A DNA stretch of 13,618 nucleotides from Nanobdellota archaeon (GTDB taxonomy: Archaea > Nanobdellota > Nanobdellia > Parvarchaeales > Parvarchaeaceae), in assembly GCA_021818905.1 (NCBI GenBank), contig JAKASS010000019.1:1-13618 (forward strand), read 5' to 3'. A program made the position numbers and the translations under genes. Within the stretch, counting starts at the first letter, position 1. The number at the start of each line of letters is the position of its first letter. Below the pieces are notes generated by a model that searched no databases, was not told the origin of the DNA, and saw nothing but the letters and a program-made list of their open reading frames with translations. Of this stretch, positions 2,126 through 13,170 are shown in pieces.

Positions 2126-2815
2126 ATGAAAAGTCAAGAACTGCTCGAAATTCTAAAGGAAAATGTTCTTAATGTATTCTCTCCTCTAGACGTTTATAGA
2201 ATAACCAGAAAAACAAAACATTATGTAAATCTGCTCCTATATAGGATGACAAAAAAGGGGCTGATAATGAGAATAGAACGGGATAAATATGCACTTAAAA
2301 TCGCGCTCTACATAATCGCATCCAACATAATCCGCCCGTCTTACGTTAGCTCAATGTTTGCATTTTCTTATTATGGCTTGACTACCCAATTGCCCGCCAA
2401 AATAGATGTGATATGTACAAAGCAACACAAAACACTGGATTTGGAAGGCATCAAGATAAGATTCATTAAGACTGACAAAACGCGTGTTTTTGCATTCCTT
2501 AAGGATTCAAACAATGCATTTGTAGCCGAACCAGAAAAGGCAGTCATAGATTCACTTTATTTTAATACCCTTTCTTTTGGTTCAATAAGCGAAGCGGTTT
2601 CTATCGGTCTCAACAAGAACGTGCTAAACGTCAATAAATTGAACGATTATGCGCTGCGAATGAAAAATACAGCTCTTATGAATAAACTTGGCTTTTTACT
2701 GGCAGATAATGGCATAGATGATAAAAATATATATCCCGATATCTCCAAAAATTATGTAAAATTATCAAAGAGCGGCGCAAAAATAGACAAAAGGTGGAAG
2801 ATCATATATGGCTGA
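2126..2815 (+). CDS. abiEi: AbiEi-like antitoxin, transcriptional regulator
   Basis: 229 aa. The N-terminus (about 1-56) is a winged helix: helix ELLEILKENV, then SPLDVYRITRKTKHYVNLLLY with the recognition helix, then a wing LIMRIERDKYAL. The middle and C-terminal part (about 60-190) has the shape of the AbiEi C-terminal domain, including a YYGLT motif, repeated short strands and VAEPEKAVIDSLYF, the characteristic EpEkALlD-type motif of AbiEi/DUF2971-like antitoxins. AbiEi proteins bind their own promoter and antagonise the AbiEii nucleotidyltransferase without a stable complex (type IV). It overlaps the toxin gene by 8 bp. A TATA box at -27 supports the start. Good match in context and order; the subfamily is not resolved. 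Confidence 0.85.
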   Translation: MKSQELLEILKENVLNVFSPLDVYRITRKTKHYVNLLLYRMTKKGLIMRIERDKYALKIALYIIASNIIRPSYVSSMFAFSYYGLTTQLPAKIDVICTKQHKTLDLEGIKIRFIKTDKTRVFAFLKDSNNAFVAEPEKAVIDSLYFNTLSFGSISEAVSIGLNKNVLNVNKLNDYALRMKNTALMNKLGFLLADNGIDDKNIYPDISKNYVKLSKSGAKIDKRWKIIYG

Positions 2816-3608
2816 AATAGACAAGTGGCGGAATTATTCTTCGATGCTTAACTTCCCAAGGCCCGAGAACGCAGAAAAAGATTTTTTACAGGAACTCTTA
2901 CTTAAGGAAATATATGCGAAAACCGAAGGCATAGTATTTAGAGGCGGCACGGCACTGTCAAAATTTTATGGTTCGGGCAGATTCTCAGAAGACTTAGATT
3001 TTGTAATGGCCGATGAAAGCTATACTAAACGTGTAGAAAACGTGCTCTCTAAAATAGAGGCCGGCATAAAAAATGTTGGGAACTATTTCAAAGCAAATTT
3101 TTGCAAGACCGCATATAAAGACATGTTCGAATATTCAATAAGAATAGAAGGACCTCTCTTTGTCAGCTCTGGGAATCCCGCTGCACTACAGAAAGTATCA
3201 ATAGACTTGAACTCCAGAGAAATCGTATCTTTGAAACCTAGACTGGTGTTCCGTAACCCAATGTATGAAAATATGAGAAACTACACCATATTAGTTGAAG
3301 AATTGGAAGAGTTGCTTGCGGACAAGGTAAAAGCATTGATAGAAAGGCACGCAAAAAGAAAGGGGAGCTACGTAAGGGATTTGTACGACATATGGTCTGT
3401 TTTGAAGAAATATGACACAAAGATAAATCTCGATTTAGTAAGGGAGAAAATGCAGAGGTATGGAAAAAAGGAGTTTTCGTTGCTTGACTTTAAAACGGCT
3501 TTAAAGGACGCCAAAGACACATGGGAAGTGGAAATCAGTGCGGTCATGAGGACCTATCCGACATACGATGACGTAAAGAGCACAATAGAAAAGAAAGCCC
3601 ACCTCTAA
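2808..3608 (+). CDS. abiEii: AbiEii-like nucleotidyltransferase toxin
   Basis: 266 aa. Diagnostic motifs of the AbiEii/AbiGii nucleotidyltransferase superfamily are all present: GGTALSK at 46-52, RFSEDLDF at 58-65 with the two metal Asp, a central Asp in SIDL (D133), LADKVKAL at 170-177 with the catalytic-type Lys K173, and RDLYDIW at 190-196. Characterised members modify tRNA 3' ends with nucleotides and stop growth or abort phage infection. The start ATG lies inside the abiEi 3' end (8-bp overlap). All motifs look intact, so the enzyme is probably active. The gene ends only 8 bp before a truncated transposase gene, marking an old insertion or recombination boundary. Confidence 0.9.
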   Translation: MAEIDKWRNYSSMLNFPRPENAEKDFLQELLLKEIYAKTEGIVFRGGTALSKFYGSGRFSEDLDFVMADESYTKRVENVLSKIEAGIKNVGNYFKANFCKTAYKDMFEYSIRIEGPLFVSSGNPAALQKVSIDLNSREIVSLKPRLVFRNPMYENMRNYTILVEELEELLADKVKALIERHAKRKGSYVRDLYDIWSVLKKYDTKINLDLVREKMQRYGKKEFSLLDFKTALKDAKDTWEVEISAVMRTYPTYDDVKSTIEKKAHL

Positions 3609-4250: not shown

Positions 4251-5522
4251 TCATTTCAGGTCGTTCCTTAGGATCTCTTCTATCTTTGTAAGCAGAGAAG
4301 GGGAGAAAGCTATGTTCAGTTCCCTCGTCCTGCCGTAACGACCGTTGCTTTTTACCCTAGACATTATCAATGAATTGTAATCCATGTCCGCTATAAGATC
4401 GGAGATCCTCCTGAACGTAAGCGCTTTCAATCCGTATCTTTCAGCTATCTTTATGTAAGCATCGTATACTTCGCCGCTATAGACCTTTCCTAATCTTTTA
4501 CTCCTGGCGACCACTATTATCGAATAAAGTATCGACTTGCTTTGTTTTGTCATCGACTTTATAATCTCTTCGGTTATGTTCTGTTCAAGAATTGCTGAAG
4601 CTTTATCGAGGTCTTCTTCTGTCAACCTGCTTCTTCCGCTTTGCTGCGCGTTCTCTCCGGCGACCCTCAAAAGGTTCAGGGCTTTCCTGATATCGCCATG
4701 TTCCTGTGCCGCAAGCGCCGCACATTTCTTGACGACACCCTCATCCATGGCGTTTTCGTAGAAAGATTCGCCGACTCGGACGTTTAGTATGTCCTCTATT
4801 TCTATCGCATTGTAAGGTTTGAACACAAGTTCGACGGGGCTCAAAGAGCTTTTTACCCTCTGGTCCAGCGAGGCCTTAAGATCCGTATTGTTGGATATGC
4901 CTATTATCGATATCTTTGCATGCTTCATTGATTCGTTCAGCCTAAGCAGGCTGTAAAGCACGCCATCACCTGCGTTTTGTATGAGTTTCTCTATCTCATC
5001 TAATATGATTATTATATATTTGTCCTCAATGTCCACTGCCGACACCATCTTCTTGTAAAGCTGGTTCACAGAAAGGCCGCTCGTAGGTACCTTGACGCCG
5101 AAAAACGTACACAGATTGGAGATAAGCCTGTACTCTGTGTTGTTGTTCTCAAGTCTGCAGTTTATATATATAGGAAGTATGTTTACGTTCTTGTCCATCG
5201 CAGTGGAAGCCAGGTTCTGTGCGATGTATCTAGTAACAAGGGATTTTCCTGTGCCTGAAAATCCATAGATCAGCATGTTCGACACTCTCTCCATCAAAAG
5301 GCTCGGCGCGAGGATGTTTGATATTTCTTCTATCTCCGTATCACGGTGCGAAATAGCCCCAGGCACGAACGATGATGAAAGGACCTCTTTATTTTTGAAT
5401 ATCCTTTTCTTGAGAAGGAATTGATTGAATATCTCTTTCGGATTTATTTTTGCTTTTTCGTTATCAGATGAAGTTTTGGAAGACGCGATTTTTAGATTGC
5501 CATCAAAAACTTCTTTAGTCAT
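4251..5522 (-). CDS. cdc6: Orc1/Cdc6 replication initiator ATPase
   Basis: 423 aa, a usual length for archaeal Orc1/Cdc6. AAA+ core: Walker A GFSGTGKS at 87-94, Walker B IIIILDEIEK at 170-179, sensor 1 around GISNNTD at 208-214, DQRVKSSL with a probable arginine finger R222, and sensor 2 GDIRKALNLL at 276-285. The C-terminal 320-423 is the winged helix that contacts origin boxes, with RRISDLIADM as recognition helix and a basic wing NGRYGRTRE. These proteins bind ORB sequences and load MCM. The gene reads away from an eight-box ORB-like array starting about 95 bp upstream of its start, the classical archaeal cdc6-next-to-origin layout. A TATA box about 38 bp upstream implies a leader near 11 nt. 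A 10-bp inverted repeat follows the stop. Confidence 0.95.
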   Translation of the reverse strand: MTKEVFDGNLKIASSKTSSDNEKAKINPKEIFNQFLLKKRIFKNKEVLSSSFVPGAISHRDTEIEEISNILAPSLLMERVSNMLIYGFSGTGKSLVTRYIAQNLASTAMDKNVNILPIYINCRLENNNTEYRLISNLCTFFGVKVPTSGLSVNQLYKKMVSAVDIEDKYIIIILDEIEKLIQNAGDGVLYSLLRLNESMKHAKISIIGISNNTDLKASLDQRVKSSLSPVELVFKPYNAIEIEDILNVRVGESFYENAMDEGVVKKCAALAAQEHGDIRKALNLLRVAGENAQQSGRSRLTEEDLDKASAILEQNITEEIIKSMTKQSKSILYSIIVVARSKRLGKVYSGEVYDAYIKIAERYGLKALTFRRISDLIADMDYNSLIMSRVKSNGRYGRTRELNIAFSPSLLTKIEEILRNDLK

Positions 5523-5554
5523 ATGATTTTTGATTAATATCTAATAGATTTTCC

Positions 5555-5564
5555 TATTTAAATA
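5555..5564 (-). promoter_or_regulatory. TATA box for cdc6
   Basis: TATTTAAATA, centred 37-38 bp upstream of the cdc6 ATG at 5522. It lies between the start codon and the nearest ORB-like box, so initiator binding at the boxes could repress its own promoter. Confidence 0.5.
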
Positions 5565-5617
5565 GATAATATAACTAAAAGATATATAACTTTGATTATA
5601 TAACTGTATTTCTATGA

Positions 5618-5648
5618 TTCCATAGAGACACCTACGTTTCCTATGGAG
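5618..5648. promoter_or_regulatory. ORB-like boxes 1 and 2, convergent pair
   Basis: TTCCATAGAGAC (5618-5629, two changes from the core) faces CTCCATAGGAAAC read on the minus strand (5636-5648), whose G-tract TAGGTGT overlaps the first box. These are nearest to the cdc6 promoter. Confidence 0.65.
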
Positions 5649-5692
5649 ATTATTTAAACTTCAAAAATCGCTTTCTAACCTTTTCTATCTTC

Positions 5693-5714
5693 TATTATTC
5701 TATATAGAATAATA
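5693..5714. repeat. 22-bp perfect palindrome in AT-rich origin core
   Basis: TATTATTCTAT followed by its exact reverse complement ATAGAATAATA, with no spacer. It is entirely A/T apart from one C and one G. It lies between the outward-facing ORB-like boxes, in the likely melting region. It could extrude as a cruciform or bind a dimeric protein. Confidence 0.75.
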
Positions 5715-5733
5715 TAAATATATAAAATATGCC

Positions 5734-5768
5734 TTCCACAGGAAATATAGGTGTGTTCCATAGGAAAC
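5734..5768 (+). promoter_or_regulatory. ORB-like boxes 3 and 4, tandem
   Basis: TTCCACAGGAAAT (5734-5746) followed by ATAGGTGT, and TTCCATAGGAAAC (5756-5768). They are 22 bp apart, two helical turns, so two initiator molecules would bind the same face. Confidence 0.75.
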
Positions 5769-5847
5769 ATCTAAAATCTCTTAAAACCAGTCGAAAGGAG
5801 ATATCAAACAAAAAATTAATTTTTGCAAACATTTTGAAAGGGGATCT

Positions 5848-5860
5848 TTCCACAGGAAAT
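5848..5860 (+). promoter_or_regulatory. ORB-like box 5
   Basis: TTCCACAGGAAAT, identical to box 3 in the 13-bp core but followed by T-rich DNA without the G-tract (a mini-ORB form). Confidence 0.65.
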
Positions 5861-5888
5861 TTTTCTTGGCCGATTTTTGAGAGCCATG

Positions 5889-5901
5889 TTTCTACTGGAA
5901 A
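5889..5901 (-). promoter_or_regulatory. ORB-like box 6, reverse orientation
   Basis: On the minus strand TTCCAGTAGAAAC, one base from the general archaeal core TTCCAGTGGAAAC, with no G-tract beside it. Weaker than the others in this array. Confidence 0.5.
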
Positions 5902-5975
5902 AAATCTTTAGCTTTTCACCGCTCAGACTATACAATATATTTGTTTGCTACTTTTTTGGAGTTAAATATAGAAAA

Positions 5976-5985
5976 ATTTAAATAC
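5976..5985 (+). promoter_or_regulatory. TATA box for the surface-protein/ATPase operon
   Basis: ATTTAAATAC is centred about 33 bp upstream of ATG 6014. It is the only good TATA-like sequence between the central ORB boxes and the 550-aa gene, so it probably drives the whole operon from within the origin region. Confidence 0.45.
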
Positions 5986-6013
5986 AACCGTCTCCTATTA
6001 CTTAGAATAATTT

Positions 6014-6217
6014 ATGGAAAAAGAAAAAAGCGGAGAAAAATTCTCCACAGGAAATGCAGGACTCGACTTTGAGATGATCGATAATAAAATTTACAGGGAC
6101 GAAATGTTTTTCATCGAAACAGAAACACGTTCCAGAGGAAACGGTGGTGTAGGTGTCATCTCGATTAATTTGTTATCAATATTATTGCTTTCATATAATC
6201 TGGGGTCTTTATGCTGA
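6014..6217 (+). CDS. Possible 67-aa leader ORF of the operon, overlapping the origin
   Basis: Starts at ATG 6014 after a TATA box and ends overlapping the next start by 7 bp (ATGCTGA), as true operon neighbours do. The N-terminal half is polar; residues about 45-64 (GVGVISINLLSILLLSYNLG) are hydrophobic enough for one membrane segment. Against it: two ORB-like boxes (6044, 6130) lie inside, so part of its sequence (FSTGN, SRGNGG) is dictated by the boxes, and it resembles no family I know. It could be a real small membrane protein, a leader peptide for translational coupling, or a chance frame. Confidence 0.38.
   Translation: MEKEKSGEKFSTGNAGLDFEMIDNKIYRDEMFFIETETRSRGNGGVGVISINLLSILLLSYNLGSLC
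6044..6055 (+). promoter_or_regulatory. ORB-like box 7
   Basis: TCCACAGGAAAT preceded by TC, with a GCAGG stretch after it. It is within the possible 67-aa ORF. Confidence 0.6.
6130..6156 (+). promoter_or_regulatory. ORB-like box 8, extended
   Basis: TTCCAGAGGAAAC (6130-6142) followed by GGTGGTGTAGGTGT, the most G-rich tail in the array and close to a full-length ORB. It is within the possible 67-aa ORF. Confidence 0.7.
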
Positions 6218-7863
6218 AAGAATTTAAACTATCGATTTTTGTCAGCATCGCGTTCCTCTTGCTACTGTCGATGGCGGGGACAGCAAAAGCTGAGCAGATA
6301 ACCGGTAACTTCACGGTATCTTCCCACTATACTATGATGTCAAACCTTAACTATTCGGGATGGATAATCATAGAGAACGGAGGCAGCCTTAACCTAAGCA
6401 GCTACGAAGCACAGGCTAAAGGGATAATATTGGAGAATGGCTCTTCGCTTTATGTAATGAAAGCCTCGGGTCTTTTTGGTCTTTCTTATATCTACAATAA
6501 CGGGACTATTTACTATCACAGGAATATCCTCAACGTAACTTTCTTGTCGAATTATGGGAAGATAATCCACCAAAGCTGGCTTCATTTCTACAACAGTCTT
6601 CCTATGTCATATGGAGGTTCTGGGGGCGGCGGAGGCACAAACGGCGATGCCAGCGCCACGGAAGGCCTTAACACTAGGGTAAGTGGCGGTGCGGCGGGCG
6701 ATAACCCGGCAGGCGCCGGTGCAGAAGCTCCTCTTCTTGGGGATCTATCTTCGCCGATATTTAATGAGTCTATTTTGAGCGGGGCTTCGGGAGGCAACTC
6801 TTCATGTGAAGCTGGTTCCGAAGGGGCGTATGGTCTTATAATCAACACCTCTACATTTGAGAATTTTGGCTCTATCTTTAACCAAGGGGGATCTGCCGGG
6901 ACTCCCTGCTATAGTCCGGAGTACAATGGCGGCGGGGGAGGGGCGGGAGGAGGCGGCGTGCTAGAAATAGTGTTTTCTTCCATGTATCTAAACAAAGGAG
7001 TATACAACCTGAGCGGAGGAAGCCTAAACTCATATTATTTTAGCGATCCAGATGCCTTTTACAAAGGATGGGGCGGCGAAGGAGGCGCTGGGCAACTCGT
7101 CATCGTAAGGGTCGCGCATGACCCGGCCAGCGGGCAAAACACGACCGTAGCAAACGCCGCTTCAAACGCCTCGGTTTCGATCCCGATCTCAGCGCTTAGC
7201 TACATAAACAAGACCCTCGTCGACCTGACTTCCGAAATATCAGGTTATCAGGAGGCGATATCGGGTTACCAAGGTGAGATATATGCGCTGAACAAAAGTT
7301 ATCATGACGTCGAAGCTACGCTGTCTGGGGTCAACGACACGCTTTCCGGGTTGGTATCCAAGGACAGCGGTTATCAGGCGGAGATATCCGGCCTCGGCAC
7401 CCGTTACGGCGAGATACAATCGTCACTTTCTGACATTTACGACGAGGAAAGTCTGATCCAGAACCAGACGGCGCTTATCCAAGCCAAGGCCGCGGGCTAT
7501 AATTACACCGCAGGATTTTCTGGGCTGGAAGCGAGTGACAAGGCCATACTTTCCGGGTTGGCGTCTGTCGAAGACCAGGAGTACTGGATCCAGAGTGGAC
7601 CATCGAGCGATTATTACCGGTACACTTCAAACCTTTCGAATGGCACGATCTTTCTTGCAAATATATCGGGGCACGAAGACTACAGCGAAGCGCCTTATCT
7701 GCATGAGGATCTTGCGCCGGTCACGGTCGTAAGCAGCCCAAATTACTCGTTGTTCGGCAGGCAGCAACCGGCAGCAGACCAGCCGAGCATCCTTTCCGAG
7801 ATATATTCCGGGTTCGTGCAGGTCGTCACGTTCATACCCGACATGGTGGCTAGGGACGTTTGA
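6211..7863 (+). CDS. Secreted Gly-rich, coiled-coil surface protein
   Basis: 550 aa. Residues 1-27 are a Sec signal peptide (KEFK, hydrophobic core to about 22, cleavage after AKA). Residues 30-130 are rich in Tyr, Asn and NxS/T sites and short beta strands (IIIENGGSLNL, IILENGSSLYV), suggesting a repetitive beta fold. Gly-rich linkers lie at 135-145 and 240-249. Residues about 330-460 form a heptad-rich region with SGYQ repeats (344, 351, 386) spaced like a coiled coil. There are two Cys (199, 233) and no clear C-terminal membrane anchor or cell-wall signal. Many glycosylation sequons suit an extracytoplasmic archaeal protein. It overlaps the preceding ORF by 7 bp and is followed within 2 bp by the zinc-binding protein gene. 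It may form a surface fibre or adhesin serving the ATPase encoded downstream; family not recognised. Confidence 0.85.
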   Translation: MLKEFKLSIFVSIAFLLLLSMAGTAKAEQITGNFTVSSHYTMMSNLNYSGWIIIENGGSLNLSSYEAQAKGIILENGSSLYVMKASGLFGLSYIYNNGTIYYHRNILNVTFLSNYGKIIHQSWLHFYNSLPMSYGGSGGGGGTNGDASATEGLNTRVSGGAAGDNPAGAGAEAPLLGDLSSPIFNESILSGASGGNSSCEAGSEGAYGLIINTSTFENFGSIFNQGGSAGTPCYSPEYNGGGGGAGGGGVLEIVFSSMYLNKGVYNLSGGSLNSYYFSDPDAFYKGWGGEGGAGQLVIVRVAHDPASGQNTTVANAASNASVSIPISALSYINKTLVDLTSEISGYQEAISGYQGEIYALNKSYHDVEATLSGVNDTLSGLVSKDSGYQAEISGLGTRYGEIQSSLSDIYDEESLIQNQTALIQAKAAGYNYTAGFSGLEASDKAILSGLASVEDQEYWIQSGPSSDYYRYTSNLSNGTIFLANISGHEDYSEAPYLHEDLAPVTVVSSPNYSLFGRQQPAADQPSILSEIYSGFVQVVTFIPDMVARDV

Positions 7864-7865
7864 TC

Positions 7866-8495
7866 ATGGAAGAAGATATCAGCAAGCTGTACGAAGCGCT
7901 GCTTAAGCTGAACAAGAAAGTCTCCGAGCTCGACCAGCGCAACACGGAGATACAGGCAGCGATCTCCTCGATGAGTCCGCCGGCAATCGGAGAGGAGAAA
8001 CCTGTAATAGATCAGGAGACTACTATGCTCGATGCCTATAACATAAGCGGCTATAAGAGCCTGTCTTTGCCGGACGGCGGCTTCGTAAGATTAAAGTCCA
8101 GGTCTCTTTGCGTCAACGGAAGACACGTAGTAGACAGCACCGACAAGATGCTTTTTTGTTCGAAATGCGATGCGATAATCTGCACGGACCACCGCTATGA
8201 CCTTGACGAGACCGTCTGCGCCGGCTGTCTGGAGAAAAGGATAAGCGATTTCGACAGCATGAGCCTATATGTCCTTTTTGCGCTGGAGAACGGCATCTCG
8301 ATAAGGAAGCTCAGGAAGCGGCTGAACATCCCATGGAAAGAAATCGAAGCGGCGCTAGACAAGCTGCAGAAATCAAATTGCATCTTCAGGGACCTGCTCT
8401 TCAGGTACCGGATAAACATATACGGCGAGAGCGCGGTGGACACGGCCAAGCTGATAATGGACTTTTCTTTCCTGGAGCCGCCGGCAAAGGACTGA
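7866..8495 (+). CDS. Coiled-coil / B-box-like zinc / winged-helix-like protein
   Basis: 209 aa from ATG 7866; an in-frame TTG at 7860 overlapping the upstream stop would add two residues and is less likely. Residues 1-35 are a coiled coil. Residues 82-121 hold eight possible zinc ligands: C82, H87, C98-x2-C101, C106-x2-H109, C118-x2-C121, the spacing of a two-zinc cross-brace of the B-box/RING type. Residues about 130-200 are helical (SLYVLFALENGISIRKLRKRL, then IPWKEIEAALDKL) and look like a winged helix for DNA or protein binding. No signal peptide, so cytoplasmic. Gaps of 2 bp on both sides tie it to the surface protein and the ATPase, and it may be the adaptor of that complex. I know no named family with this architecture. 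Confidence 0.8.
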   Translation: MEEDISKLYEALLKLNKKVSELDQRNTEIQAAISSMSPPAIGEEKPVIDQETTMLDAYNISGYKSLSLPDGGFVRLKSRSLCVNGRHVVDSTDKMLFCSKCDAIICTDHRYDLDETVCAGCLEKRISDFDSMSLYVLFALENGISIRKLRKRLNIPWKEIEAALDKLQKSNCIFRDLLFRYRINIYGESAVDTAKLIMDFSFLEPPAKD

Positions 8496-8497
8496 GC

Positions 8498-10168
8498 ATG
8501 GAAACAGCCGACGATCTTCTGGCAGGGGTGATCCAGGCCATCGACAAGTACGGGAAATCTACGGACGTTTCCGGCATCGTGCGTCTTTTGGAGCGATATT
8601 CCAAGACGCCGAGCGACAACGGACGGGCGTTCCTTTTGCGCAGCATGCTGCTGAAGGTAGAAGCGATGCAAAGAAGGTCCCCCATGGCCTGTCCGGTCCA
8701 GGCGCCGGTCCCGGAAAGCATGGCGGACGGCGTGATTGCGGGCAGAGTGGTCCCCGGCGGGGCCGAGTTCAAGCTGTCAAAGACGGACCTGAACAGGAAT
8801 ATTTTGGTGGCGGCTTCCGTCGGTCACGGGAAGACCTCGTTGGTATATAACATACTAAGCAGACTCGGGGACGAAGGCCTCACCTACATGCTTTTTGATC
8901 TCAAGCGGGATTACCGCGCCCTCGCTTACGGCGACGACACTTTTTATTTCGATGAAAAGAACCTGAGGATAAACCCGCTCGAGCCCCCGCCCGGCGTGTC
9001 CAAGACGGAATGGGCAGTCCACTTCGCGGACGCCTTCTCGCATTCGTTCGCCCTTTTGATAGGGAGCAGAGATTTCCTTCTGGAGAAAGTCCTTGAACTC
9101 TATGAGAGCTGGACGGGTCCGGAAACGCCGTCTCTCATGGACCTGCTTTTGCTGCTGGAGACGACTACGGCAAGGAACGAATACCTAAAGGTCGTGAGAG
9201 GCAGGATAAAGGCTTTGGTCTCCTCCACGAAGGCTTTCAGTAGCAGGACCGGCATCTCTCTGCAGGGACTCGACAAAAGCAACGCCATATTCGGGATAGA
9301 CACTTTTGGTTTCGCCGAGCAGGGCTTCATAGTCTCGATAATGCTGTCGTATCTTTTTTACATGAACCTTTCCCAGGCGGAAAAGCGGGGCAAAGTCTAC
9401 AAGATAATCTGCATAGACGATGCTCATACGATACTCGACGTAAGAAAGGAAAAGGATTACGCACTCGGCATACCGCTGCTGCACCAAGTGATATCCAAGA
9501 TGCGCGAACTCGGCGTCGGCTTTATCTTTTCCGACCAACAGGCATCGTCGCTTTTGTCCAGCGTGATACAAAATTCCAACACAAAATTCATAGGACGGAT
9601 AAACCTGGCCGAAGACATCCCAAGGATATTCGGAGACAGGGCCGCGCCGGAAATAGGATCCGCCATCCAGAACCTAAAAGTCGGGGAGTTTTTGGCGCTG
9701 TCTCCGAGCGTCTCGCCTTATTGCGTGATAAAAGCGGATGCGGTGTCCATAGACAAAGACATCGATGCCGGGCTGATAAGCCTTAGGTCGAGGAGACTGG
9801 AAAAGACTTCTCTTCGCAGGGCAAAGACGCCAGCACCGGACGGCGTCGTCGCGCTGAAGAAAAAGATGACCTCCGTCCTGTCTGGAAAAGGTCTTGATTT
9901 CGATGACGACGGCTTCGGCCTCCTTGTAAGACGGGCGGGCGAATGTAAAAAGATCTACATGATATTTATGGCCACGATCGAAGACCTGTTCAGGCTTCTC
10001 GACACCAAATTCGACTTGCTCATAGACGTGGTAGAAGAAGGCACGGACAAGGAGGAGATGATCAAAAGACTGGGCTCCGCAGGGACCCTTAAGCCGTTTT
10101 TCAACCTGGACACCTTAAAGGTATGTTATCCAAGCGATTTTTCTTTGGGTGTCTTGGGTGAATGTTGA
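8498..10168 (+). CDS. HerA/VirB4-like (DUF87-type) P-loop ATPase
   Basis: 556 aa from ATG 8498, 2 bp after the previous stop; the frame is open further upstream, but that part is only antisense-like overlap with the neighbour. Walker A ASVGHGKTS at 106-114, Walker B YKIICIDDAH at 301-310, a polar Gln sensor SDQQASSLL at 345-353, and NTKFIGRI with a candidate arginine finger R367 match the HerA/FtsK/VirB4 translocase class, including the separate N-terminal domain (about 80-100) leading into NRNILVAASVGHGKT. The usual Asp-Glu of Walker B is Asp-Asp (D307, D308). The C-terminal 440-556 is an extra domain. Members are hexameric motors that move DNA or remodel proteins; here the partners are a secreted protein and a zinc protein, so a surface-linked transfer or assembly motor is one possibility. 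Confidence 0.85.
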   Translation: METADDLLAGVIQAIDKYGKSTDVSGIVRLLERYSKTPSDNGRAFLLRSMLLKVEAMQRRSPMACPVQAPVPESMADGVIAGRVVPGGAEFKLSKTDLNRNILVAASVGHGKTSLVYNILSRLGDEGLTYMLFDLKRDYRALAYGDDTFYFDEKNLRINPLEPPPGVSKTEWAVHFADAFSHSFALLIGSRDFLLEKVLELYESWTGPETPSLMDLLLLLETTTARNEYLKVVRGRIKALVSSTKAFSSRTGISLQGLDKSNAIFGIDTFGFAEQGFIVSIMLSYLFYMNLSQAEKRGKVYKIICIDDAHTILDVRKEKDYALGIPLLHQVISKMRELGVGFIFSDQQASSLLSSVIQNSNTKFIGRINLAEDIPRIFGDRAAPEIGSAIQNLKVGEFLALSPSVSPYCVIKADAVSIDKDIDAGLISLRSRRLEKTSLRRAKTPAPDGVVALKKKMTSVLSGKGLDFDDDGFGLLVRRAGECKKIYMIFMATIEDLFRLLDTKFDLLIDVVEEGTDKEEMIKRLGSAGTLKPFFNLDTLKVCYPSDFSLGVLGEC

Positions 10169-10470: not shown

Positions 10471-11751
10471 ATGGCCTCGATGTCTGACATAAAGTCTGCA
10501 ATAATAGAAAGGGAGCGCGAGATATCGGATATATTCGATAAGGAGAACATAATAAATCGCGAATTGAAGCTAAACAGAAAGGACATCGGGTTCGGTGCCG
10601 CAAATATAATCACGGGACCAAGGAGATCAGGCAAGTCGATTTTCGCTTTTCAGCTATTCAAAGGAGAAAAATTTGGATATGTAAATTTTGAGGACGAAAG
10701 ACTGAAAATAGACGGTCAAGAACTTAATAATGTCTTAGAGGCGATATACTCTATAAAAGGGAAAACCAAAAATCTGGTCTTTGACGAAATCCAAAATGTG
10801 AACGGCTGGGAGCGATTCGTTTCTAGGCTAGCGCCTTCCAACCGCGTCGTCATAACCGGGAGCAATTCTAAATTAATGAGCAAAGAACTAGGAACCTTCC
10901 TTACGGGACGGCACATAGATCATCTACTTATGCCTTTTAGCTTCCGGGAATTGCTTGAATATAAGGGGCTAAGATTCAGCGAAGAAGAATCATACCTGAC
11001 AGAAAAGAAAGCCGTATTAAAAAAAGTCATGGGGGAGTTTTTGATCAAAGGAGGATTTCCGCTCAGTTACGGCAAAGGCAAGCAGTATTTAGTAAATCTT
11101 TATAGCGACATCATAGAAAAAGACATAATCAATAGATATAACATAAAGTACGTCTCAAAGATCAGAGAATTGATTAAATACGCCCTCTCTAACTTTTCTG
11201 GCGAGATAACCTTAAACAAGCTTAAAAATATTTTCAATCTAAAAGGGGACCATACAGTAGATAATTGGTTAAAGTACGCGGAAGACGCATATCTTCTTTT
11301 TAAGCTAGAGAGATTCTCTTTTAAACTTAAGGAAAGATACATCGCACCCAAAAAGATCTATTCTATCGATACCGGCCTTTTGAACGCGATCCTGTCCGAA
11401 TCTGCAGAAAGCAAGGGCAGGCTAATGGAAAACGTCGTCGCTATAGAATTGCGCATACGAAAAAATTATTTCGAGCCCGACTTAGAGTTATACTATTGGA
11501 AGGATCACGTTGGCAACGAAGTAGACTTTGTATTAAGGTCCAAAAACACTGTAAAACGGCTTATTCAGGTGACTTATGCCAGTAGCAATCTAGACCTAAA
11601 GCCGAGAGAAACAAAGGCGTTGCTTAAGTCTGCCAATGAACTAAGATGCAACGACCTTCTCGTCATAACCTGGGATTACGAAGCAGAGGAAAAGGTAAAA
11701 GGAAAGAAGATAAGGTTCGTACCGTTGTGGAAATGGCTCCTGAACCTTTAG
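10471..11751 (+). CDS. AAA_14 / DUF4143 family ATPase
   Basis: 426 aa. N-terminal ATPase: Walker A GPRRSGKS at 49-56, Walker B NLVFDEIQ at 101-108, sensor TGSNSKL at 129-135, followed by the LTGR turn and FSFREL that are typical of AAA_14 proteins. The C-terminal part (about 210-370) matches DUF4143 with a degenerate PD-(D/E)xK-nuclease-like pattern: E326, GNEVDFVL at 348-355 and IQVTY at 365-369. The family is very common in archaea and bacteria, often near mobile or toxin-antitoxin genes; its biochemical role is not settled. Start chosen because the TATA box is 26 bp upstream; MSDIK at codon 4 would be an alternative. It is a single-gene unit and stands between the putative operon and the Fic region. 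Confidence 0.92.
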   Translation: MASMSDIKSAIIEREREISDIFDKENIINRELKLNRKDIGFGAANIITGPRRSGKSIFAFQLFKGEKFGYVNFEDERLKIDGQELNNVLEAIYSIKGKTKNLVFDEIQNVNGWERFVSRLAPSNRVVITGSNSKLMSKELGTFLTGRHIDHLLMPFSFRELLEYKGLRFSEEESYLTEKKAVLKKVMGEFLIKGGFPLSYGKGKQYLVNLYSDIIEKDIINRYNIKYVSKIRELIKYALSNFSGEITLNKLKNIFNLKGDHTVDNWLKYAEDAYLLFKLERFSFKLKERYIAPKKIYSIDTGLLNAILSESAESKGRLMENVVAIELRIRKNYFEPDLELYYWKDHVGNEVDFVLRSKNTVKRLIQVTYASSNLDLKPRETKALLKSANELRCNDLLVITWDYEAEEKVKGKKIRFVPLWKWLLNL

Positions 11752-12291: not shown

Positions 12292-13170
12292 ATGGTATCG
12301 ATAAAGAGGAAGCGGGGGGGCGGAAAGACATATTATTACCTGCGGCACACTTACAGGTCAAACGGCCGGGTGCTCGCGAAAGAGAGATATATTGGTTCAA
12401 AGATGCCGAAAAACGCGGACGAGATGAAAAAGGACTTTCTATTTGAGATATACGGCGCGAAGTGGTTTTCCAGATTCGAGGAAATCCGCAAGAACCACCT
12501 GAAAACGCTGCGCGCGATGCCGGAATCAGAGAACGAAAAGAATATCGATACCTTCGCGATAAGATTCACGTATGATACCCAGCGTATCGAGGGATCCACT
12601 ATGACTCTGCGAGAAACGGCGAACCTGATAGAAAATGGTATTTCCCCACGTAACAAACCTGTCCATGATATAAAGGAGGCCGAGGCCAACCAAAGGGTAT
12701 TCAAAGAAATGCTGGCGACGGGGAAAGACCTATCGTATAATCTCATACTAGACTGGCATAGGAAACTTTTCCTCCAGACAAAGCCGGATATAGCGGGTAA
12801 ACTGAGAGTTTCTGACGTAAGGATGTCCGGAAGCAAGTTCGTACCTCCGACGCATCTTGAAGTTTATCCACTAATGAGAAGATTTTTCGGCTGGTACGAA
12901 AAGAACAGGACGACGATGAATCCGGTAGAACTCGCTGCCATGGTACACTTGAAATTAGTTACCATACGTCCGTTTGCCGACGGCAACGGGAGAATAAGCC
13001 GTCTGGCGATGAATTTCGTCCTGAATAAACGCGGTTTTCCCATGCAGAATATCGAGTATGAGAACAGGGACAGTTATTATAAAGCGCTCGAAAGGGCGCA
13101 GACAAAAAAAGATGATTCGATATTTCTAGTCTGGTTCTTCAAGAAGTACGTAAGGGAGAACTCACAGTGA
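12292..13170 (+). CDS. Fic-domain protein with N-terminal inhibitory motif and altered active site
   Basis: 292 aa. Residues 1-40 are a basic hairpin-rich domain (KTYYYLRHTYRSNGR, AKERYIG) seen at the start of many archaeal Fic proteins. T96QRIEG101 fits the inhibitory motif (S/T)xxxE(G/N), N-terminal to the Fic core as in class II Fic. The core motif is IRPFADGNGRISR at 225-237, where the canonical form is HPFxDGNGRxxR: the catalytic His is Arg226. The codon is CGT, one transition from CAT. All other loop residues (D230, G231, N232, G233, R234, R237) are intact. Fic enzymes transfer AMP or other groups to hydroxyls of target proteins, and the His is the general base, so this copy should be inactive or have a changed activity. 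Leaderless promoter, no partner gene on the same strand. Confidence 0.9.
   Translation: MVSIKRKRGGGKTYYYLRHTYRSNGRVLAKERYIGSKMPKNADEMKKDFLFEIYGAKWFSRFEEIRKNHLKTLRAMPESENEKNIDTFAIRFTYDTQRIEGSTMTLRETANLIENGISPRNKPVHDIKEAEANQRVFKEMLATGKDLSYNLILDWHRKLFLQTKPDIAGKLRVSDVRMSGSKFVPPTHLEVYPLMRRFFGWYEKNRTTMNPVELAAMVHLKLVTIRPFADGNGRISRLAMNFVLNKRGFPMQNIEYENRDSYYKALERAQTKKDDSIFLVWFFKKYVRENSQ

Follow-up and report, generated by a model that had tools for sequence, protein, structure and literature searches.

What could be the reason for the presence of a putative DNA motor, a zinc protein and an exported protein in a single operon beside the replication initiator gene of an ultrasmall archaeon? The question is raised by contig JAKASS010000019.1 of a Nanobdellota archaeon, whose entire 13,618 bp constitute the window analyzed here; the source genome (945 kb, estimated completeness 100%) is that of a member of Parvarchaeaceae, a family of tiny acid-loving archaea whose order, Parvarchaeales, is placed by GTDB within Nanoarchaeota (PMC10134863). 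Three plus-strand genes follow one another in the window with both junctions measuring 2 bp, and encode a secreted glycoprotein-like protein, a cytoplasmic adaptor and an ATPase of the FtsK-HerA superfamily; the orc1/cdc6 gene (hereafter cdc6) diverges from them. The answer that we tentatively infer, with somewhat less than even confidence, is that the trio represents an origin-linked chromosomal DNA translocase having a loader of its own and co-expressed with a surface glycoprotein.

Conservation and descent of the operon

The order secreted protein, adaptor, ATPase is found on a single contig in 16 genomes, further genomes having partial copies that end at contig edges, and the junctions span −56 to +8 bp across the family. 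The ratio of nonsynonymous to synonymous substitution rates (dN/dS; unsaturated dS only) is 0.05–0.23 between close pairs for all three genes, indicating that each is under purifying selection; together with the gene order kept in 16 genomes this places the trio far beyond chance. On 18 of the 19 cdc6 contigs that extend far enough upstream (16 of 17 genomes) a trio gene adjoins cdc6, the exception being G022. Thus, the sequence-only reading of the window, which had proposed three tightly packed genes and had made its case depend on their co-occurrence in other genomes, is upheld on both counts. No report of this three-gene operon, or of its linkage to cdc6, was found in the literature.

The pairwise distances of adaptor and ATPase are correlated with r 0.97 and those of either protein with cdc6 with r 0.87–0.88; the overall range for cdc6 and the trio proteins (0.87–0.97) matches what vertical descent predicts. 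The secreted protein is the fastest evolving, with a mean distance of 0.71 versus about 0.6 and a dN of 0.19 versus 0.05–0.08.

The named relatives of the ATPase all belong to Ca. Parvarchaeota, Nanoarchaeota, Acidifodinimicrobium or Rehaiarchaeum and are read as the family Parvarchaeaceae, and no credible adaptor was found outside this family among 371 genomes of the phylum. Weak adaptor-like matches outside the family were rejected (a winged-helix regulator in G111, a PheRS-like protein in G083, no adaptor-like open reading frame (ORF) in G264), as was the match in G033, an ordinary HerA-like protein; the ATPase of G051 (26% identity) was not counted, its neighbors being a different coiled-coil protein and a Fic gene, with no cdc6. 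In 60 genomes belonging to other families of the class, the 6 kb or so to either side of cdc6 contained neither a related ATPase nor a related secreted protein; the single adaptor-profile match was rejected as another PheRS-like protein.

Genomes seemingly devoid of the trio are also devoid of cdc6, and in one case (G012) the trio turned up on a small contig; absence is therefore read as missing sequence and not as loss. Neither cdc6 nor trio was found in the whole genomes of the genus members G013–G016, G021 and G023, so that either the assemblies or the genomes themselves lack the origin region as a block. Contigs of metagenome-assembled genomes often end within the trio or at its edge (L039, L041, L043–L051, L053, L056–L058), where strain variation or sequence common to co-occurring species may be responsible. 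G006 has no more of the trio beside cdc6 than a secreted gene truncated to about 305 aa (L163 3297–5038), behind which lies a helix-turn-helix gene; mobile insertion or misassembly is a possible cause.

A likely chromosomal origin

The 688-bp gap between cdc6 and the secreted gene contains seven repeats resembling origin recognition boxes (ORB) with the core TTCCANAGGAAA, one on the minus strand near 5624–5648 and the others starting near 5734, 5756, 5848, 5890, 6043 and 6130; all strict-pattern ORB matches of the window fall within this gap. Similar arrays occur upstream of cdc6 in 13 family loci (window included), many with a trailing GGTGTCTCTG. An Orc1/Cdc6 gene beside repeated ORB-like dyads, the arrangement that defines archaeal Orc1/Cdc6-ORB origins, is therefore present. 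Since the genome has a single Cdc6_C match, i.e., a sole Orc1/Cdc6 gene was found, and since the repeats lie next to it, the site is likely the chromosomal origin, probably the single one of the genome, in line with the placement at an origin proposed earlier. The cdc6 orthologues within the genus are 69–84% identical.

The surroundings in relatives are those of a chromosome. In G010 the flanks consist of SufS-like, YjeF, VIT1, V4R and DUF929 genes, which mark the site as chromosomal; in Rehaiarchaeum (L054) EF-2, uL13, uS9 and DP1 genes (read by eye) flank the locus, DP1 lying about 10 kb from cdc6, and a cdc6–DP1 linkage is known at the cdc6/ORB origins of Euryarchaeota (PMC2643942).

The suggestion that the locus is a plasmid-like transfer module is not supported, given these housekeeping flanks, the sole cdc6 and its co-divergence with the trio. 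Viral contigs (IMG/VR) and phage records yielded no relatives; plasmid matches are distant and restricted to the motor core, with no full-length plasmid relatives found, and a viral fold search returned only core-level HerA/FtsK-like matches. A circular plasmid was rejected, the contig having no terminal overlap. Halanaeroarchaeum plasmid pHSR2-01 carries an unannotated ATPase piece (L172 6001–6453) that is 33% identical to the window ATPase over 158 aa, possibly a pseudogene or a wider haloarchaeal relative.

Table 1. Features of the origin region in the window
Feature	Position	Strand	Evidence
orc1/cdc6 initiator gene	4251..5522	-	Cdc6_lid 75 bits, Cdc6_C 74 bits
Likely chromosomal origin with seven ORB-like repeats in AT-rich DNA	5523..6210	.	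Repeat finding
Probable decayed small membrane-protein gene	6014..6217	+	Longer ORFs in relatives
Exported Gly-rich, glycoprotein-like protein, 550 aa	6211..7863	+	Hydrophobic N-terminus, sequons
Cytoplasmic adaptor, 209 aa	7866..8495	+	ATG 7866 (in-frame TTG 7860); zinc ligands, winged helix
FtsK-HerA superfamily ATPase, 556 aa	8498..10168	+	Walker A 8822-8836, DDAH 9416-9427, QQ 9536-9541

The ATPase start is taken as the ATG at 8498; the mechanical ORF list gives 8333, a position inside the adaptor. Elsewhere in the window, an AbiEi-like/AbiEii type IV toxin–antitoxin pair lies near the origin at 2126–3608 (AbiEii 110.8 bits, AbiEi weak), an AAA_14-DUF4143 ATPase is encoded at 10471–11751 and a Fic protein at 12292–13170; relatives of the DUF4143 ATPase are also close to the trio in L036, L038, L040 and L051.

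The ORF at 6014–6217 shares DNA with two ORB-like repeats and with the beginning of the secreted gene. Longer versions with a hydrophobic C-terminal part exist in L034, L036, L037, L038, L040 and L100, changes in the hydrophobic part falling mostly at third codon positions, and in the window the sequence for the homologous C-terminus (GLYAERI) lies in another reading frame; the window copy is thus probably a decayed, apparently frameshifted small membrane-protein gene.

The three proteins

All 17 ATPase homologues compared keep the GHGKT, DDAH and QQ motifs unchanged. By profile it matches DUF87 (23 bits), CedD (3.3e-9), TraC (2e-5) and VirB4 (5e-5), as well as HerA; by fold, the model of the orthologue from L084 (mean predicted local distance difference test score, pLDDT, 83) matches the C-terminal domain of DndH (Z 30.6), VirB4 (Z 27.9) and HerA (Z 25.9), with TrwB also a neighbor (Z 24–31 overall). 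Walker A, Walker B, the glutamine after strand 4 and a HerA/VirB4-like core, the features that define the FtsK-HerA superfamily, are all present, so that the earlier assignment to a HerA/VirB4-class motor is supported. In the model, residues 2–58 are helical and a single hairpin (76–93) precedes Walker A; in relatives of the window protein the core is followed by a winged-helix (wH)-like segment and an alpha/beta segment. The latter resembles restriction-endonuclease-like folds in the order of its elements, but no catalytic D/E/K is invariant in it, and that identification was not adopted. The source genome (G000) encodes two other HerA-like ATPases (C8:21299 and C7:74370), although NurA was not found.

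The adaptor comprises a helical N-terminus (a coiled coil as judged from sequence only), a two-zinc domain (8109–8228) and a wH-like C-terminus (about 8238–8444) that matches the CheF winged helix (E 3.4e-4). The eight zinc ligands C82, H87, C98, C101, C106, H109, C118 and C121, which include a CxxC-x4-CxxH core, are invariant in 20 homologues, and neither adaptor nor ATPase has a transmembrane (TM)-like segment. A cytoplasmic zinc/winged-helix adaptor, as initially proposed, is thereby supported; the accompanying label “B-box-like” says more than is seen, namely eight ligands with no B-box match in Pfam.

The secreted protein has a hydrophobic, signal-like N-terminus, no clear second TM segment, and 21 N-glycosylation sequons versus 6.5 in shuffles (z 6.6; homologues z 4.0 to 7.5), all of which agrees with the export foreseen for it. 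No Pfam family matches it, and a Foldseek comparison of its model with the PDB gave no significant match (best E 0.17). It had also been called fibre-like, a label that likewise says more than the predictions bear out: residues 34–300 are predicted to be beta-rich, whereas 304–550, including the supposed coiled coil, are without confident prediction. Most homologues carry a hydrophobic C-terminal tail.

In Rehaiarchaeum (L054) cdc6, adaptor and ATPase are all on the same strand, the adaptor beginning 20 bp after cdc6 and the ATPase overlapping the adaptor, and the secreted gene was found neither beside the pair nor by profile elsewhere (one genome, 77% complete). The core may therefore be cdc6–adaptor–ATPase, which suggests that the secreted gene was added, or else that Rehaiarchaeum lost it.

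Possible functions of the operon

If the trio acts on the chromosome, how could it work? According to the translocase reading that we prefer, the operon descends vertically in Parvarchaeaceae at what is likely their chromosomal Orc1/Cdc6 origin, and its core would be a motor of the FtsK-HerA class, presumably ring-shaped and translocating DNA, with a cytoplasmic zinc/winged-helix adaptor of its own. Bound near the origin to DNA, or to the initiator, the adaptor would load the motor, which would shift or separate newly replicated chromosomal DNA and might in this way serve segregation. In Parvarchaeum and Acidifodinimicrobium the pair would be read together with the gene of the exported glycoprotein, an envelope partner or a passenger; since in 8 of 12 loci this gene starts about 70–155 bp past the final origin repeat, the timing of its expression could depend on Orc1/Cdc6 binding. 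In favor of this reading are the regular presence of a trio gene beside cdc6, the Rehaiarchaeum pair, the confinement of the linkage and of the adaptor to the family in the genomes searched, the sole cdc6 with its ORB-like arrays, the motifs and fold of the motor, the winged helix of the adaptor and the wH-like segment of ATPase relatives, the correlated distances, and an adaptor and ATPase both free of TM-like segments. A number of points weigh against such a chromosomal role: gene dosage or history may account for the adjacency at the origin; the secreted gene in the operon of both other genera is not explained by it; correlated distances are equally expected from plain vertical descent; the Rehaiarchaeum arrangement is known from a single incomplete genome; G022 has its trio at another place than cdc6, with no ORB-like repeats there; and the ATPases of the window and of two others are without the wH segment.

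Dosage near the origin and a shared promoter could by themselves keep the genes together, with the glycoprotein and the motor pair doing separate jobs; the pair that stays by cdc6 in Rehaiarchaeum and the faster evolution of the secreted protein fit this explanation, which we take seriously while doubting it, since junctions of a few bases survive across about 60% divergence and the trio order persists even away from cdc6 (L162). The sequence-only reading had suggested a surface-linked machine, of which the exported protein in the operon stands and the obligatory link is weakened by the Rehaiarchaeum adaptor–ATPase pair directly behind cdc6, in a genome where no secreted gene was found but which is only 77% complete. 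In its DNA-transfer version chromosomal DNA would be moved in or out through glycoprotein contact, the adaptor picking origin-proximal DNA. The DNA-transfer ATPases CedD, TraC and VirB4 are among the sequence neighbors of the motor, VirB4 and TrwB among its structural ones, the secreted gene is within the operon in 16 genomes, and ARMAN cells touch Thermoplasmatales via pili-like structures (PMC5864196); yet channel, pilin, relaxase and coupling protein are all missing from the operon, the motor has neither the TM helices of CedB/CedD nor the long N-terminal domain of VirB4, and the secreted gene was not found in Rehaiarchaeum, so that such transfer seems unlikely.

That the ATPase drives glycoprotein export or assembly, in the manner of a minimal secretion system of type IV or type VII, is very improbable: the shared operon, the hydrophobic tail of most secreted homologues and the small membrane protein of one branch speak for it, but Sec should suffice for a protein with an ordinary signal-like N-terminus, and the pair is present where the secreted gene was not found. 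Hardly any weight is given to the idea that cdc6 and the HerA-like motor were once a plasmid or virus module that became domesticated and fixed at the origin of the chromosome; archaeal mobile islands often contain HerA-like and Orc/Cdc6 families (PMC4158269), the trio region of the window is flanked by AbiE, Fic and DUF4143 genes and a related ATPase piece sits on the Halanaeroarchaeum plasmid, whereas viral relatives and adaptors outside the family are lacking in the searches described above and the distances of the sole cdc6 copy track those of the trio.

The translocase reading also has a bolder form, which we regard as distinctly improbable, namely an origin-encoded DNA pump coupled by the zinc adaptor to the surface glycoprotein and physically linking replication or segregation to surface or cell-contact events in ultrasmall archaea; if true, the pump, adaptor and glycoprotein would be a hitherto undescribed kind of machine. 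The questions touched are how DPANN archaea segregate their chromosomes and how their surfaces engage hosts: a motor–adaptor pair beside the only cdc6 across the family is a concrete candidate for origin-linked chromosome handling, the co-transcribed glycoprotein offers a testable link to the cell surface, and the likely chromosomal origin of the family is here defined together with its repeat type.

Comparison with known systems

The ATPase is a motor of the FtsK-HerA superfamily that departs in the features tested from HerA-NurA, VirB4 and CedD. With HerA it shares the P-loop core and the glutamine after strand 4 (fold Z 23–26); on the other hand, the N-terminal HAS beta-barrel of HerA is replaced by a helical N-terminus in the model, wH-like and alpha/beta C-terminal segments are added in relatives, and no NurA partner was matched by profile in nine family genomes, some of them incomplete (7 of 14 controls positive). 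CedD is its best curated-profile match, TraC and VirB4 coming next, but the score of 35.9 bits compares with a CedD cut-off of 600 and the TM helices of CedB/CedD are not present. The VirB4 fold is matched closely, as given above; nevertheless, about 100 residues precede Walker A in place of the long N-terminal domain of VirB4. Unlike the VirB4/TraC and Ced ATPases, the motor is accompanied by no channel or pilin gene in its operon, where neither CedA channel nor CedA1 pilin genes were found (the search covering the operon only), as the initial description of an operon devoid of pilin and polytopic channel had it. The best structural match is the C-terminal ATPase domain of DndH (331 residues aligned, 19% identity); DndH, however, sits in a restriction system with other partners, none of which is seen here. 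Finally, as an origin the locus is like other archaeal cdc6/ORB origins in having Orc1/Cdc6 beside ORB-like repeats and conserved linked genes, and differs from them in the nature of these genes, which here encode a motor, a zinc adaptor and an exported protein.

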